Virus record (IMG/VR): IMGVR_UViG_3300010400_000033
Span: 1-40,233 of that record
Length of the DNA stretch: 40,233 nucleotides
DNA from: a virus
Strand: one strand, 5' to 3'
In this document: positions 11,634 to 39,901 of the stretch, piece after piece
Numbering within the stretch: the stretch's first letter is position 1
Layout: each line of letters starts with the position of its first letter
Notes under the pieces: generated by a model
Told to the model about the DNA's origin: nothing
Databases searched by the model: none
Seen by the model: only the letters and a program-made list of their open reading frames with translations
Made by a program: the position numbers and the translations under genes

Positions 11634-12240
11634 GGGAAAGAGAAAAATGTTTTTGCGCGTTTAAAAGAGTTGCCCATTGGTCTTTGATTTTTTCCTCCTG
11701 ATCCTGAATCCATTTCTTCTTCCCTTCAAAAAGATTCCGGGATATTTCCGCCAACTTTATTTTTTCCTCAGCAATCCGCTCCTTCTCAATGACAATCTTG
11801 AACTTTGTTTCATACTGTGCATCCTTTTGGCGATTCTGCCCTTCTATCTCTTGGAGCAAACGGGAGAAATTCTCCTGTTCTACACTAAGCCCTTTTTTTG
11901 CCTCTCTGGCGCGTTTTAATTCCTTCTGAGCATCTTCCATCATTGAGAGAACAGAACGCTCTTTGGCGGCGATTTCAAGGGCTTGGTTTTCACCATCCTT
12001 TTCCTTTTTGGAAATTTCTACTTCTTTCTTCTGGATTTCCAGAGATTTGATTTTCACTTCTTTTTCTTTCTCCTGTAAATCCTGAATCTCTTTCTGGCGA
12101 GATTTCAGTTCGAGGTCATATTTCTCCTGTACTTCTTTGATTTTCGCAGTGATCTTTTGTTCTTCTTGGGAAATAAATTCGGAAAAATCTTCTTCGATCC
12201 TTTTCTTACGCGCCAAAATCGTATTGATCTCCCGCTCCAA
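11626..12240 (-). CDS. Long coiled-coil protein (204 aa), TTG start or frameshifted
   Basis: Almost continuous charged coiled coil (Glu/Lys/Gln heptads) over 200 residues. The only in-frame start is TTG at 12240, with no pyrimidine tract. The frame stays open upstream and encodes more coiled coil, and the 23-residue ORF at 12258-12329 encodes a matching coiled-coil N-terminus in another frame. Together they look like one gene broken by a frameshift. Possible roles: scaffold-like, minor tail or core protein. Confidence 0.5.
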   Translation of the reverse strand: MEREINTILARKKRIEEDFSEFISQEEQKITAKIKEVQEKYDLELKSRQKEIQDLQEKEKEVKIKSLEIQKKEVEISKKEKDGENQALEIAAKERSVLSMMEDAQKELKRAREAKKGLSVEQENFSRLLQEIEGQNRQKDAQYETKFKIVIEKERIAEEKIKLAEISRNLFEGKKKWIQDQEEKIKDQWATLLNAQKHFSLSHG

Positions 12241-25996: not shown

Positions 25997-27649
25997 TTAA
26001 GTATAGAGCCAATCATCCGGGGAAGCTTTGGCCTCAAATTGTGGTACTTTATCCGCGGGGATTCTGCCAGCCAGGAAGTCGTGCGAAAGGAGAAATCCTT
26101 TCGGGGGATTTAATTCGGTATATTCCATCTTCTGCACCCTGGAGATAGCTATTTTCCAGTAGACCGTAGCATGGACGAAGTGATCCGGGCCGGAAGTGTC
26201 CCAGCGGGAATGTGGGATGCCGAAAGTATCCGTCTCCACCACGCGATAAATATTGCCCCAGTGTTTCAGATACTCTTCGAGTTCATTATCAGCATAAGAT
26301 TCAGGTGAGCGCATCAAACAGGTGAACTTTATCTTCTGGAAATTGAAATCCTCCACCACACTTTGGATAATGGCATTGCGATCAGCATAGACATAGCCAC
26401 GGCGATCCTGCGCGCCGAAAGTATAGATATCTTTTTTCTCGCGGTCTTTCTTATAAAAGCAGCAGTAGACCTGGTTGGGATACTTCGGTCGGAGAATATC
26501 CCGCGCATAGAAATCAGGATTGGCATCGATCACCGTGACGGGGTTATATCGTTTAATGAGTTCCTCGACCTCATCCCAGGATTCGGCTTCACCGACTTTA
26601 AAGATGCCCTCGTGGTTGCCGAGGACGTAGTGTTTATATTTATGCCCGACGTCTACCCCCATGGCATTTCTGAGTTGGGAGTTCTCTTTTTGCTCGATAC
26701 AACGCGTAATAATACGTTTATCCACCACATCATCTTTCTCCACATAAGGGATCCCCAGGATCATGTTATAGAAGTACTGTGGAGATTTGGTCTTTTGAGC
26801 GAAAATGAGTTCCTTGGCAGTAACCCACATAGCCATAAGTTGGTTAATATGGTAGCCGTGCATATCCCGACCAGGAAATTCAGCGACCCATTCGCCGTCA
26901 TGACGCACAGCATCGGACATTTCCTGGCCACACTTACTACAAATATATATTTCTTTCTTCATGTCAATATTCTGGAAAAAGTCCAGAGCTTGAAAGTGGT
27001 TACAGTGTTCACATTTCACCATCCAGTGGCGCATATCGGAGAGTTCGTACTTCTTGGCAATGCCACGTTCCGATGGCATGATTGGATTCGAGAACCACCA
27101 TTCCCCCTTATACTTACTCTTCTGCAAACGAGATGAATACATATCTACGACATCCGGTTTACTGGCATCAAGCTCATCGTAAGCAATGAGATCAGCCGTG
27201 TGCATAATGGCGGCCTTTTTCCCATGGGTTCCACGATACCAGATAAAATTATTCCCGATTTGCTTTTTGGTCATGGCGTCACTTTCCTTTTGACCATCAG
27301 CTCCCCTGAGTAACTTATCCCGAATAATCGGATTATTCCAAGCGATCTGATCCACTTTGGAAGGTACGAAATCCCGGATGTCATCAAAAGTCGGTAACGT
27401 ATATATGATGTTATACCCACGATAGGCAGCAGCGTAAAAGGTCTTGATGATCGCTAAGGTAGACCAGCCTACCTGGGCGGACTTCATACAACATTGTTTC
27501 CAATGCCAATCGGCAAATGGTTCGATGAGGAAATTATGATCATCGAATTCAATCGGATCACCACGTTCATTTAAGATACCGTATTTGAGTATCCAACCAA
27601 GGACTGATTCCTCGAGGTCAATGCCTTTAAAAGCTTCAAGATCAAGCAT
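25997..27649 (-). CDS. terL: Large terminase subunit, GpA type (550 aa)
   Basis: ATPase: Walker A-like KSAQVGWST (residues 56-64) and Walker B IAYDELD with D158 E159. A zinc ribbon follows in the ATPase-nuclease linker (C213, C216, C237, C240), as in the lambda GpA-type family. The C-terminal nuclease has the RNase H-like starts GVDVGHKY and DANPDFYA. It packages DNA into the procapsid and cuts it. The start overlaps the upstream Phd/zinc gene by 8 bases, so the two are co-translated. Confidence 0.9.
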   Translation of the reverse strand: MLDLEAFKGIDLEESVLGWILKYGILNERGDPIEFDDHNFLIEPFADWHWKQCCMKSAQVGWSTLAIIKTFYAAAYRGYNIIYTLPTFDDIRDFVPSKVDQIAWNNPIIRDKLLRGADGQKESDAMTKKQIGNNFIWYRGTHGKKAAIMHTADLIAYDELDASKPDVVDMYSSRLQKSKYKGEWWFSNPIMPSERGIAKKYELSDMRHWMVKCEHCNHFQALDFFQNIDMKKEIYICSKCGQEMSDAVRHDGEWVAEFPGRDMHGYHINQLMAMWVTAKELIFAQKTKSPQYFYNMILGIPYVEKDDVVDKRIITRCIEQKENSQLRNAMGVDVGHKYKHYVLGNHEGIFKVGEAESWDEVEELIKRYNPVTVIDANPDFYARDILRPKYPNQVYCCFYKKDREKKDIYTFGAQDRRGYVYADRNAIIQSVVEDFNFQKIKFTCLMRSPESYADNELEEYLKHWGNIYRVVETDTFGIPHSRWDTSGPDHFVHATVYWKIAISRVQKMEYTELNPPKGFLLSHDFLAGRIPADKVPQFEAKASPDDWLYT

Positions 27650-28247
27650 GAGATGGTTTCTTCTTCTCTTTTTTAACAGGCTTGGGAAGGGGATTGAAGT
27701 CTTTAAATGTAGCCGGAGCCCTCATTGTAAATGACAATTTCCCATTTCCAGTCTCAATTTCATTCGTCCATTGTACTTTTCTCCTCGTTCTCAGAAATGC
27801 CTCAAACTGTGCCGGTACCTTCTCCGGCATTCTCACTGCAAAACAATTTCGGCACACGCTCCGTTCAACTCCGTCTTCTTCGTGTTCCCAGAGTTCTTTA
27901 GAGGGGCTACCGCAAATATCACAAGTGCCAACAAAAACCTCATCAGTCCTTGTCGCTGTCACTTCTGGAGGATTATTCAACGCATCTTGTAAATGATCTT
28001 CCCGCAAAGAGGTAGGAATGTTTACAGTTTCTATTTGCTCTTTCAATTCTTGGAACTTCTGCTCTTTGTCTGACAAATGTTGTACATCTTTTTCTTCTTG
28101 TACAACATTCTTATTTTCATATTGTACATAAGGTGAAAGAACCGCTATTCTACGCCCATAACTCGTGATATAAAATACTTCGCCTTGGCTTACTTTCTCC
28201 AGATGATCGGCCATTTTTTGTCTCAATTCAGCGACACTGATATCCAT
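27642..28247 (-). CDS. Phd/YefM-domain plus zinc-ribbon protein (201 aa)
   Basis: Residues 1-40 (MDISVAELRQKMADHLEKVSQ.., then FYITSYGRRIAVLSPY) match Phd/YefM antitoxin DNA-binding domains. A Glu/Lys-rich helix follows, then a CDICGS...CRNC zinc ribbon and a basic tail (KKEKKKPSHA). No toxin gene lies beside it; the neighbour is the large terminase, which it overlaps. The promoter and the first part of the gene are full of TGTACA palindromes, the operator core used by YefM-type proteins, so it probably represses its own operon. A role as regulator of packaging genes is inferred. Confidence 0.65.
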   Translation of the reverse strand: MDISVAELRQKMADHLEKVSQGEVFYITSYGRRIAVLSPYVQYENKNVVQEEKDVQHLSDKEQKFQELKEQIETVNIPTSLREDHLQDALNNPPEVTATRTDEVFVGTCDICGSPSKELWEHEEDGVERSVCRNCFAVRMPEKVPAQFEAFLRTRRKVQWTNEIETGNGKLSFTMRAPATFKDFNPLPKPVKKEKKKPSHA

Positions 28248-28320
28248 TTTGTACAAGATAAAGAATAAATCTATCTAAATTGTACATAATTCAATAGTTT
28301 TGTACAAGATATTTTGTACA
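28081..28320. promoter_or_regulatory. Cluster of seven TGTACA operator sites with a promoter
   Basis: TGTACA occurs at 28081, 28099, 28123, 28250, 28281, 28301 and 28315 (an eighth at 28451), usually as TTGTACA(A/T). Chance expectation for a 6-mer in 40 kb is about ten. The minus-strand TACAAT (28279-28284) with TTGTAC 17 bases upstream (28302-28307) overlaps sites 5 and 6. Sites 1-3 lie inside the gene and encode Val-Gln each time. YefM-type repressors bind this palindrome. Confidence 0.65.
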
Positions 28321-28334
28321 ACATTCGATTATTT

Positions 28335-28421
28335 TAGAAATTTATTTCTGTGGGGAATGGACTCCACGCTTTTTGACGCCACCCCCGTCACCCCCATGCC
28401 CCCCTACCCTAGAAATTTATT
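28335..28421. repeat. 12-bp direct repeats around a C-rich (G4-forming) tract
   Basis: TAGAAATTTATT occurs at 28335-28346 and 28410-28421. Between them are four C runs of 5, 5, 6 and 3 at 28382-28409, so the minus strand meets the G3+N1-7 quadruplex pattern, in an otherwise AT-rich genome. A 6-bp hairpin followed by T5 (near 28350-28378) lies in the same interval. The position between large and small terminase genes suits a packaging or cleavage site. Confidence 0.5.
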
Positions 28422-28508
28422 CCAATAGCTACCCGTAGCCAATAAGAGCGTGTACACAGGGAGTACTACCTGTTCTGAGCGTATCAATAATCTCTCCTTA
28501 TTCAATTG

Positions 28509-34589: not shown

Positions 34590-35441
34590 ATGAAGTACAC
34601 AATAAAAAGTTTCAGAAATGAGTTTCCAAACGATGATGTCTGTTTGGATTATATCTTTCAAAAGAAATTCGGGAAAGAACATACCTGCCCCAAGTGCGGG
34701 AAGAAGGGTTTTTATCGGATCAAAACTCGCAAGGTCTATTCCTGCTCTTGGTGCGCGTATCAGCTTTCGCCGACTGCTAATACAATCTTTCATAAGAGTC
34801 CTACGCCGCTCACGACTTGGTTTGAGGCGATGTACTGGCTTTCTCAAGCCAAGAACGGTATTTCTGCTTTGGAGCTTTCCCGAACTATCGGAGTCACCTA
34901 CAAATGCGCGTATAGAATTCATCACCAGTTGAGAAAAGTGATGGAGCAGGGTAGATCGTTTTTAGAAGATACTGTAGAAGCTGATGAAACGTATATCGGT
35001 GGAAAAGGAGGACACAACAAGAGGGGGCGCGGAGCGGAGAACAAAACGCCCGTCTTTGGCATGGTGCAGAGAAAAGCTCAAGTGATCGCCAAAGCAGTTA
35101 AGAATGTTAAATCTTCTACAGTCATGCCGATAATGAAAGCCAGTATAAAAATAGGAACGAACTTAATGACTGACGAATACAGAATTTATAATCCATGTGA
35201 AAGATATGGGTTCCGGCATCAGAGAGTAGACCACGGCAGAAAAGAGTATGTACGTGGAAACGTGCATACCAATACAATCGAAGGCTTTTGGAGTCAGCTA
35301 AAACGGTCTATTCACGGGACTTATCATTCCGTTTCCCCGAAGTACTTGCAGGCTTATTTGGACGAGTTTGCTTTCCGTTATAACTTGCGGTCTTCGTCCG
35401 TTCCTTTATTTGAGGTTTTGATGGCGCGGGTGCTTCAATAG
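34590..35441 (+). mobile_element. tnp: IS1595-type transposase (283 aa)
   Basis: N-terminal zinc finger (C33/C36 and C52/C55), a helix-turn-helix region (GISALELSRTIGVTYKCAY, residues 90-108), then the IS1595 DDE core with D132 (ADETYIGGK), D195 (TDEYRIY) and E231 in HTNTIEGFWSQLK. Length (283) and motif spacing fit this family. The gene reads rightward against the flanking leftward genes. No terminal inverted repeats matching the family were found, so the element is either degenerate or a domesticated transposase. A 57-codon frame overlaps its 3' end on the other strand. Confidence 0.9.
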
Positions 35442-35488: not shown

Positions 35489-36433
35489 CTATACTCGTTT
35501 CACATTGGAAAATCCATCACGCGTTTTCCTGAATTCTTCAAGCCAAGATTCGACAGATTCCTCAAAGCAAGTTTTCACTTTAGGAACTTCAAGTAAATCT
35601 AAGATTTTCCAAGCTGGCACTACGCCGTTAAAAAATGTGTTTTGCCAATCTTCATTACAAAGAAATCCCCAGTTAACTCCTAAAAGCCCATAAAATGTTT
35701 TAGGAGTTTCCTCTTTTAAATAGGCCAAATTTGTAGCAAGAGTCCTATAAACCATAACAGGAGAGCCAGAAAATCCCTCTTTTGATTTCATCTCTACAAC
35801 AAAACTTTCTTGATCTTTTCCAATATCTTCATTCCAAATTGGTACAGGCATCATGCTTATCGTCCCGAAACGGGCAGCAGGTTCATTCTTTTCCCTTCCT
35901 TGATACGCCATGAATCTTCCGATCATAAAAATTTCTTCTCCAAGGCCAAGCTCGTATTCCACTACTTTTTCTTTTGTAATGAAATCCTCTTGCTGAATAT
36001 AAGACGTATCACAATCAATGCTAGTTTTTTTAAGGGGAATTATTGCCAAATCATCTCCTTCAGGGTGTACAACCCAATCTGTATGTTCATAAGGAATAGG
36101 CTCTATACCACCACCTAAACGGTTTACCCGAGCGGTAGCATGTCCTTGTTTTTTAACTACGTGGCGATTAGAAACCAGAAAAAGTATGTGCGCAGTATGA
36201 ACCTCTCCACCATTTTCCAGAGTATAAAAGTAAGGCTTTCCTATTATAAAAGCAGTGCCTCCATAAGGAGAATGTTCTTGGGCATGCTCTGTAGAAGGGT
36301 ATAAATAAGCAATTGTTTTTGAAAAAGAATCAGGAAGTTTCGGCATGCTTAAGTTTTCTAAAGAATTTGGTATATTTAAGCATGCTCCTGCTTTATCAGT
36401 AAATGCCCCGACAGTAATGATATTCTTAATCAT
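35489..36433 (-). CDS. Trypsin-like serine protease (314 aa)
   Basis: Catalytic triad by motif: His91 (SNRHVV), Asp127/128 (GDDLAII), Ser222 (GFSGSP). The chymotrypsin fold covers residues 55-235, and the C-terminal 80 residues are helical (KILDLLEVPKVK). No signal peptide or membrane span, so it acts in the cytoplasm. It follows an HTH gene and overlaps it by 8 bases, so they form one transcription unit. Trypsin-like proteases of this kind occur as cargo on mobile elements and in defence or anti-defence loci; the substrate is unknown. An alternative start at the ATG 29 codons later (36346) is possible. Confidence 0.75.
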   Translation of the reverse strand: MIKNIITVGAFTDKAGACLNIPNSLENLSMPKLPDSFSKTIAYLYPSTEHAQEHSPYGGTAFIIGKPYFYTLENGGEVHTAHILFLVSNRHVVKKQGHATARVNRLGGGIEPIPYEHTDWVVHPEGDDLAIIPLKKTSIDCDTSYIQQEDFITKEKVVEYELGLGEEIFMIGRFMAYQGREKNEPAARFGTISMMPVPIWNEDIGKDQESFVVEMKSKEGFSGSPVMVYRTLATNLAYLKEETPKTFYGLLGVNWGFLCNEDWQNTFFNGVVPAWKILDLLEVPKVKTCFEESVESWLEEFRKTRDGFSNVKRV

Positions 36434-36638
36434 TACGTGAGGTCAAGGGATAGATACCAAATTTTAAATCTCCTTCCTCGTACATTTGCCGTAAAAACCC
36501 TGCTAAATGAATTCGTACCGATTCATGCGCAATTCCTAAAATCTCTCCCATTTCCCGATATGATTTCTTTCTCTGCATCCATAACTTGATAGCTTCTCTG
36601 TCTTCTGCCGTGAGATCATATATTGTCCGTCTTTTCAT
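36426..36638 (-). CDS. Helix-turn-helix protein (70 aa)
   Basis: The region DREAIKLWMQRKKSYREMGEILGI, followed by AHESVRIHLAGF, is a clear HTH of the sigma-70 region-4/resolvase type. The ATG lies 7 bases after the -10 of a TTGACA promoter, so the mRNA is essentially leaderless. It is the first gene of a two-gene unit with the protease and probably controls its own promoter. Confidence 0.65.
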   Translation of the reverse strand: MKRRTIYDLTAEDREAIKLWMQRKKSYREMGEILGIAHESVRIHLAGFLRQMYEEGDLKFGIYPLTSRND

Positions 36639-37963: not shown

Positions 37964-39134
37964 AGCTAATATGAGCGGTTTTCGTATTAAACTTATGCGT
38001 AAACATTCCCGTTTGCCCGAAGCGATTTTTCCGCAAAATGATCTTAAAAGGCACTTCCTCAAAATCCCCTTCGGCTTCAAATTCTCGATGCAGAACTATT
38101 CCGACATCGGCGGCACTTCCGATTGCTCCGCTCCCCTTAAATCCTAGAGTGCGGAAATTCTCGTTTTTCTTGTATTCCTCCGAAACCTGACTCAAAGCGC
38201 AAATAAATACGTTCTTTGATTTTGATAGCAACGCAAGGGTAGTAGCGACATTCGACATGCGTTCATACTCCGATTTATCAGAAGTAATGATGAGCTGTAA
38301 GTAATCTATAAACACACAATCGAAGTCATTCTCAGAAATATACCGCACGATTTGCTCCAAGCGAATCAGGTGTGTTGGGACTTGCATTTCATTCGTAACA
38401 ATCTCATTTGCTGCTTTTTCTTCTTTCATACCGCGATTTATTTTGATTTTTAAATATATCTCCATGAGATCATCACCGCGCATTTCCAGAGACAGAAAAC
38501 ATACTTTTGCTTTTTGAAGCTGTGCCTGGTCGCAAAGTTGCAAAGCAAACCGGGTCTTTCCCGTATTGGAATATCCACCGAGAACCCAAAAATGCCCACG
38601 CTTCATTCCCTTCGTGAACTGGTCGAGCTTTTGAAATTTCGTCTGAAATCCATTCGGCGATTCCCTATTTTTTAGAGCTTGCAGTAATAATTCAGCCGAT
38701 CCGGTTTTTACTTGCTCCTGAGAAAGTTCCTCAATTTTTTTCTGGTAGTGAGAGAGCTTCACGATAATATTCGGGTCTTTCGCCATTTCTGCCCCCATGC
38801 GCATAAGTTTTAATTTTACGGATTCTTCCCGCAACCTTCGTGCTGAATCTCGTAAAACAGGCCAATGTGCATCTTCCTGCATATCTCTAAGTACAACCAC
38901 ACTATGCGGCTCTGGCTTATCTTGTGGTACATCTTTCCTGAGTTCTTGAGTTACCGTCCAGAGATTGATTTGTTCTCCACGCCGAAAAACAGATTTTATG
39001 CCGCGGAAAATTATTTTTTGGTCAGGCGTCATGAAATCGTCTTCTGTAATCTTATCGAGGAAATACCCAACATCAGAGTCTACTTCTCCGAAACTGATAA
39101 GCCGACAAATAAATTCTTGGGCGGAATTGTTCAT
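37947..39134 (-). CDS. DnaB-type replicative helicase (395 aa)
   Basis: N-terminal helical domain (residues 1-110) then an SF4/RecA-type ATPase: Walker A GGYSNTGKT (186-194), Walker B FIDYLQ (275-280), and the sensor-like CALSQVSEE. Length is close to short DnaB forms from phages. The ATG at 39134 overlaps the stop of the initiator (ATGA). It would unwind the fork with host polymerase; no phage primase was seen. Confidence 0.85.
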   Translation of the reverse strand: MNNSAQEFICRLISFGEVDSDVGYFLDKITEDDFMTPDQKIIFRGIKSVFRRGEQINLWTVTQELRKDVPQDKPEPHSVVVLRDMQEDAHWPVLRDSARRLREESVKLKLMRMGAEMAKDPNIIVKLSHYQKKIEELSQEQVKTGSAELLLQALKNRESPNGFQTKFQKLDQFTKGMKRGHFWVLGGYSNTGKTRFALQLCDQAQLQKAKVCFLSLEMRGDDLMEIYLKIKINRGMKEEKAANEIVTNEMQVPTHLIRLEQIVRYISENDFDCVFIDYLQLIITSDKSEYERMSNVATTLALLSKSKNVFICALSQVSEEYKKNENFRTLGFKGSGAIGSAADVGIVLHREFEAEGDFEEVPFKIILRKNRFGQTGMFTHKFNTKTAHISYDPYI

Positions 39135-39799
39135 AGTTGGCGAATACCAGAAAAAGCGGAATCTTGCTTTTGTTCTCTCCCACGCCAAGTTCTTACAGAG
39201 GCTTTCCAGTCTTTCATTTTAATTCCGTTAGAGAGTTTCCATCCTTGGGCTTGGTAGTAATCAAAAAACTTCTGAGCTGAAAAGGAAGTGCATTTTATTT
39301 CTTCCAGATATTCCTGAATTTCTTTCACCTCTGGAATTTTGAAATTTTCTTTTTTACTTTCTTTATCCTTTCTCTCCTCTCCTCTCCTATCCTTGGATTC
39401 CATTTCAGAATCCATTTGGATTCCATTTGGATTTTTATTGGCTTCTTTCCTTTCTTTATCCCATCTAATTTTATTAGCAAGTACTGCCTTTTTACTTTTT
39501 TCATTCCGATCATTTATATCTGACAAGAGGCGATTTGACCAAAAAAATACATCATCTTTCTCGAACAAATTATACGATTGGATTACGTCCGCAATCCATT
39601 TGGATTCCATTTGGAGTTCAAAGGCCAACACATCTATATCAACTAACTTTAAACGGCCCTCCGAAGACTCTGCCAACTTTTCCAAAAGCATCCAATAAAT
39701 AGCATATCCAGTGCCATTTGAATATTTAGCACGCAATCGTAAAACTTTCTCATCATTGCGTGAGTTATAATCGTGCTTTAGGTAAAATGATTCTTTCAT
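39131..39799 (-). CDS. Replication initiator-like protein with DUF4373-type N-terminus (222 aa)
   Basis: Start at the ATG at 39799, preferred over a TTG 15 bases upstream. N-terminal YLKHDYNSRNDEKVLRLRAK and GTGYAIYWMLLEKLAES fit the DUF4373/Lin1244 domain found in phage initiators and DnaD-like loaders. A basic Lys/Glu linker and a C-terminal helical stretch (WKLSNGIKMKDWKASVRTW) follow, which resembles DnaD-like loading helices. First gene of the leftward replication operon, just upstream of the helicase. The motif KRxRxExK-like is not seen, and binding to the repeats in its own leader is inferred. Confidence 0.7.
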   Translation of the reverse strand: MKESFYLKHDYNSRNDEKVLRLRAKYSNGTGYAIYWMLLEKLAESSEGRLKLVDIDVLAFELQMESKWIADVIQSYNLFEKDDVFFWSNRLLSDINDRNEKSKKAVLANKIRWDKERKEANKNPNGIQMDSEMESKDRRGEERKDKESKKENFKIPEVKEIQEYLEEIKCTSFSAQKFFDYYQAQGWKLSNGIKMKDWKASVRTWRGREQKQDSAFSGIRQL

Positions 39800-39901
39800 G
39801 CTCTTGCTGGACAAATAAACTCAAAGGACACAACAACGAAAATCCCAGCAAGAGACTTATAGCTCGTTGTTGCGCCTTTTGAATCTACTCATCTTGCTGG
39901 G
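39800..39901 (-). promoter_or_regulatory. Repeat-rich leader or origin upstream of the initiator gene
   Basis: CCAGCAAG-type elements occur three times: 39892-39901, 39844-39855 (inverted) and 39800-39810, the last immediately before the ATG. CAACAACGA lies inverted at 39830-39839 and 39864-39873. The middle copy can pair over 10 bp with either outer copy, so two leader folds compete, one of them covering the start region. Equally, these may be iteron-like initiator sites of an origin. Confidence 0.55.

Follow-up and report, generated by a model that had tools for sequence, protein, structure and literature searches.

An antitoxin-fold small terminase candidate with a repeat array before and inside its own gene in an uncultured phage

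Analysis of an IMG/VR virus record of 40,233 bases (the whole stretch, referred to here as the window) identified a gene at 27642-28247 on the minus strand which joins a Phd/YefM-type domain to a zinc ribbon, lies directly before the gene for the terminase large subunit (TerL) and carries seven TGTACA sites over its promoter and coding sequence. On balance, it is considered probable that the encoded protein is an antitoxin-fold small terminase whose cos or pac site is located around and inside its own gene.

The protein, assigned from its open reading frame together with profile and motif evidence, is 201 amino acids long when counted from the ATG at 28247 (position 28256 is merely an upstream in-frame TTG) and consists of a Phd domain (residues 1-45), a linker (40-105) and a zinc ribbon (106-140). 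Residues 3-45 matched PF02604 (Phd/YefM) with an E-value of 7.6e-6 and a score of 26 bits, which is below the gathering cut-off of 29.8 bits for that family; the first 40 residues were 43% identical to plasmid-borne proteins annotated as Phd/YefM antitoxins, and an HMM built from the plasmid antitoxins gave the window protein 55 bits. The C-terminal half contains the zinc ribbon, with CxxC pairs at residues 109-112 and 132-135, which is kept in relatives, while the disordered toxin-neutralising C-terminus of the antitoxin type is absent. An earlier note, made from the sequence alone, had proposed this fusion and the lack of a toxin partner, and both were borne out: the N-terminal DNA-binding domain of a type II antitoxin is present, the neighbours are TerL and small ORFs of unknown function in place of an adjacent cognate toxin, and none of the window ORFs scanned matched a toxin family (PHROGs matches, best 25 of 58 families). 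Profile searches returned no match of the protein to a TerS or HTH family, and the protein resembled none of the known small terminase families. An AlphaFold model of the full protein, built from 4 alignment rows, had a pLDDT of 48; a confident model was obtained only for a 40-amino-acid domain of a relative (G002, see below).

The TerL gene (25997-27649, minus strand) is of the GpA_ATPase type (PF05876, E = 2.4e-22; phrog_675, E = 1.8e-88). Its first 8 bp are also the last 8 bp of the Phd-zinc-ribbon gene, which stands where a small terminase gene would be expected, as the first gene ahead of TerL and the head genes. In this position contig L158, with a TerL that is 36% identical, has a canonical small terminase (PF03592, E = 5e-38; phrog_51), and more distant TerL relatives have one gene of about 210 amino acids there with no family match. 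No other small terminase was present among the ORF matches listed for the window.

Several further features of the window were recorded. An IS1595-type transposase gene (DDE_Tnp_IS1595, E = 8e-48, plus a transposase zinc ribbon) is located at 34590-35441 on the plus strand, opposite to its neighbours, and a 70-amino-acid protein encoded at 36426-36638 on the minus strand has an HTH_38 or sigma-70 region 4-like domain (E = 4.4e-6) and is possibly a separate phage transcription regulator. Of 27 gene starts examined, just 2 have a Shine-Dalgarno-like motif (AGGA, GGAG or GAGG) within 25 bases on their 5' side, and its rarity suggests a host group which initiates translation without Shine-Dalgarno sequences.

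TGTACA occurs 13 times in the window compared to 4.46 expected from shuffled sequences, and none of 100 shuffles reached 13; the extended form TTGTACA is the strongest 7-mer cluster of the window, with 7 of its 9 copies inside 240 bp. The seven clustered sites span 28081-28320, as the earlier note had described, and share an oriented flank (TTGTACAW on the plus strand, WTGTACAA on the gene strand). Four lie upstream of the ATG and three in linker codons 40-57, just past the Phd domain, at successive spacings of 14, 20, 31, 127, 24 and 18 bp. In the direction of the gene (all sites being assigned to the minus strand), site 1 (28315-28320) lies 61 bp past a G-rich element described below, site 2 (28301-28306) doubles as the sole -35-like hexamer upstream of the gene, site 3 (28281-28286) overlaps the -10-like hexamer TACAAT and site 4 (28250-28255) is immediately 5' of the ATG; site 5 (28123-28128) covers codons 40-42, where the Phd domain ends, and sites 6 (28099-28104) and 7 (28081-28086) fall in linker codons. 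On the gene strand, a single promoter-like match lies upstream of the gene, and two of the sites make it up. When the window protein was recoded with the phage's own codon usage, at least three TGTACA sites arose in just 66 of 20,000 trials, and the probability of the three linker sites, given the amino acids and the phage codon usage, was 7e-4; the claim that these sites are kept within coding DNA is upheld accordingly. The earlier note had also counted a TGTACA copy at 28451 (GTGTACAC) as an eighth site. This copy was dropped from the set because its flanks differ and about 4 copies are expected in the window by chance; it lies on the far side of the G-rich element and is probably a chance occurrence, unrelated to the array.

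TGTACA is the core of the YefM/Axe operator, in which two palindromes are placed 12 bp apart, centre to centre (PMC7730913). Of the proposed likeness to a YefM operator, the core sequence therefore stands and the geometry does not, as paired TGTACA palindromes with 12 bp between centres are not found in the window. More than 100 contigs were found to contain TTGTACA triplets, and none of the 119 loci retrieved contained a Phd-zinc-ribbon gene, so that TGTACA arrays alone are uninformative.

Searches of the viral_contigs and phages collections with the window protein, and likewise with the protein of contig L002, gave no further relatives, and the relatives with a Phd-like-zinc-ribbon gene were reached via TerL similarity. 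In two of these contigs a related fusion with upstream DNA is present near terL, and there the arrays are kept and the motif differs. The first relative, G002 (identical to L146; IMGVR_UViG_3300045118_000311), has a TerL which is 57% identical and a matching gene beside it. It contains 15 copies of YGACAGTCA, in one orientation, all within 11720-12093 and nowhere else, with six copies upstream and nine in the linker. The linker copies occur in all three reading frames, which indicates that the DNA itself is under selection; recoding of the G002 protein never gave more than five copies of GACAGTCA in 20,000 trials compared to the nine observed, so the array is kept as DNA. In L002 (TerL 58% identical) two small genes separate the Phd-like-zinc-ribbon gene from TerL, and five GTGACTAC repeats run into the ATG at spacings of 42, 23, 22 and 23 bp. 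The repeats of this contig (positions 50-170) are thus mostly about two helical turns apart, with the last one at the start codon. The L002 contig ends 51 bp before the first GTGACTAC repeat, which could reflect either a cut at a cos site or a run of G at which assembly broke off.

An array was present in all three cases in which the gene and its upstream DNA were both visible; in a further relative, L003, the zinc ribbon is kept and the gene start lies beyond the contig end. The four proteins are related to one another in their C-terminal parts (z = 3.8-7.5) and weakly in their N-terminal parts (shuffle P = 0.001-0.015), and sequence alone gave no significant Phd homology for the proteins of L002 and G002. 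The model of the 40-amino-acid N-terminal domain of G002 had a pLDDT of 90 and came closest in structure to VapB46, prevent-host-death and YefM domains; as the alignment used for this model contained the window's Phd row, the fold match is supportive and not independent. The Phd-zinc-ribbon protein is not universal in the clade: in L004/L005, L126 and G007, which are close by TerL similarity, TerL and the G-rich element are present and the gene is missing from beside TerL, and relatives lacking the gene there showed no array near TerL.

The G-rich element (GGGGGGCATGGGGGTGACGGGGG; 28382-28404, minus strand) is a cosN-like candidate flanked by two copies of a 12-bp direct repeat, TAGAAATTTATT, at 28335-28346 and 28410-28421. 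Its general form is GGGGG-YAT-R-GGGG...GGGG, occurring once per record, upstream of TerL, and its chance expectation in the window is zero. It is conserved upstream of TerL in the clade, being present there in all five distinct genomes with enough upstream sequence, at -755 relative to TerL in the window, -770 in G002, -380 in L126 and -145 in L004/L005, while G007 has a variant element at -2388. It thus shares one property of a cos site, that of a conserved DNA element linked to terminase genes. Measured from the end of the element, the first two sites lie at 61 and 75 bp in the window, compared to 60 and 73 bp in G002, a similar spacing in this comparison of two genomes although both the DNA and the motif differ; the gene starts are at +135 and +187, respectively.

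The element occurs in many other contigs; among 46 representatives of these, a TerL belonging to one of three families could be detected in 17. In these unrelated contigs it was found 0-2 kb upstream of the TerL domain in 10 of the 17 (2.2 expected; P about 2e-6), and in 7 of 12 when records over 12 kb were considered (0.76 expected), with mixed orientation. That the element is specific to the clade, as the lack of a GpA-type TerL in the other contigs carrying it had suggested, was considered and rejected, as the other TerL families showed enrichment near TerL. G-rich elements of the form GGGGGYATRGGGG...T...GGGG were seen in more than 100 viral contigs (L172-L250), and several AT-rich contigs have multi-copy G-rich arrays right before a short conserved sequence resembling a gene start (ATGAAGAAAGAAGC). 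A literature search for a G-rich cos found none; the G-rich cohesive ends CGCCGGGGGCC (PMC6893835) and ggcgaggcgggggaacgag (PMC5261728) have been reported.

The earlier note had taken the protein for an autoregulated regulator of the packaging operon. Autoregulation is possible, but the relatives point more towards a packaging-initiation protein, given the small-terminase slot, an array layout which is kept despite the change of motif and the similar distance to the G-rich element. In such a mechanism the Phd/YefM N-terminal domain would bind lineage-specific repeats (TTGTACAW in the window), which would serve as a loading array of the cosB or pac type around and within the gene; the zinc ribbon or C-terminal tail, conserved in relatives, would recruit or position TerL, and TerL would probably cut the concatemer at the G-rich element, some 60 bp ahead of the first repeat. 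Given the overlap of the sites with the promoter, repression of its own operon by the protein is probable as well, and the packaging-initiator and autoregulator roles could both hold.

This arrangement resembles cosN-cosB-Nu1-A of lambda, with a cut site (a candidate here), an interval of about 50-60 bp, several short repeats, a small DNA-binding gene of similar size (181 amino acids in lambda, 201 here) and a GpA-type TerL. In lambda, TerS binds the R sites of cosB; counted from the cos end, R3 occupies bp 50-65 and the start of Nu1 is at bp 191, compared to bp 89 for gene 1 of N15 (PMC9026076). There is no sequence similarity to the lambda system, however; a Phd/YefM fold with a zinc ribbon takes the place of the winged HTH, and there are 7-15 sites, extending into the gene, compared to three in lambda. 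The putative recognition sequence within a candidate small-terminase gene beside TerL is also reminiscent of headful packaging in P22 and SPP1, where pac is within or near terS; the pac site of P22 is inside terS (PMC9611059), but that pac is a single 22-bp sequence, and the TerL studied here is GpA-like and the protein fold is another.

The exact match of TGTACA to the YefM operator core counts against the small-terminase reading, as it fits autoregulation without any packaging role. The protein could be a plain antitoxin-derived repressor, acting on its own promoter and the early part of its gene to time the packaging or late operon; the two sites which form the only promoter-like match and the place of the gene ahead of TerL and the head genes agree with this, and given the core and these promoter sites autorepression is likely, in addition to or instead of packaging initiation. 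As the whole explanation, this is nevertheless judged rather unlikely. YefM employs two palindromes 12 bp apart compared to seven sites at 14-127 bp in the window and 15 in G002, the nine G002 sites deep in the linker, in three frames, are more than promoter repression needs, and the similar distance to a G-rich element which persists without the gene and is enriched near the terminases of unrelated phages is left unexplained. The protein has in common with the antitoxins YefM, P1 Phd and VapB46 its N-terminal domain and, as regards the window, also the TGTACA core; there is no toxin gene or toxin-binding tail, and relatives use other motifs. A role in counter-defence or as an orphan antitoxin, with the Phd domain acting as antidote to a host toxin or, via TGTACA, as repressor of a host toxin-antitoxin operon while the array merely tunes the gene's own expression, would suit the domain, the canonical core and the missing toxin partner in the ORFs scanned, but a zinc ribbon replaces the toxin-binding C-terminus, the unrelated motifs of relatives would not match host YefM operators and the position near TerL is kept; this is the least credible of the readings.

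The lambda ori repeats lie in the part of gene O that links the DNA-binding domain to a second one, and the linker repeats described here are similarly embedded in the gene of their predicted binder. The array could on that basis be an iteron-type replication origin or a partition site, bound by the protein as initiator or segregation factor, and the mostly even 22-23 bp spacing in L002 would agree. This, too, is improbable, because a separate initiator-like gene of the window (Lin1244_N, phrog_2562; 39131-39814, minus strand) lies 11 kb away beside a DnaB-like helicase and contains four CCAAATGGA repeats of its own in two pairs within the coding sequence (39411, 39422, 39595 and 39606), a region which is likely an iteron origin; the array gene, by contrast, goes with TerL.

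The antitoxin-fold small terminase thus remains the preferred reading. It is possible, and suggested here tentatively, that a class of packaging initiators exists in which a Phd/YefM fold replaces the HTH small terminase and a fast-evolving array lies in its own linker-coding sequence, together with a G-rich cos element widespread across unrelated phages; a literature search found no paper titled on antitoxin-fold or zinc small terminases. Known small terminases bind DNA weakly, and how they choose their own genome was described as still unclear and controversial in a 2022 review (PMC9611059). If the reading is correct, a packaging factor with a well-understood repressor fold and up to 15 repeats marking the site would make specific recognition directly testable, and a toxin-antitoxin domain would have been recruited into virion assembly, while the G-rich element could help to find packaging sites in uncultured phages.
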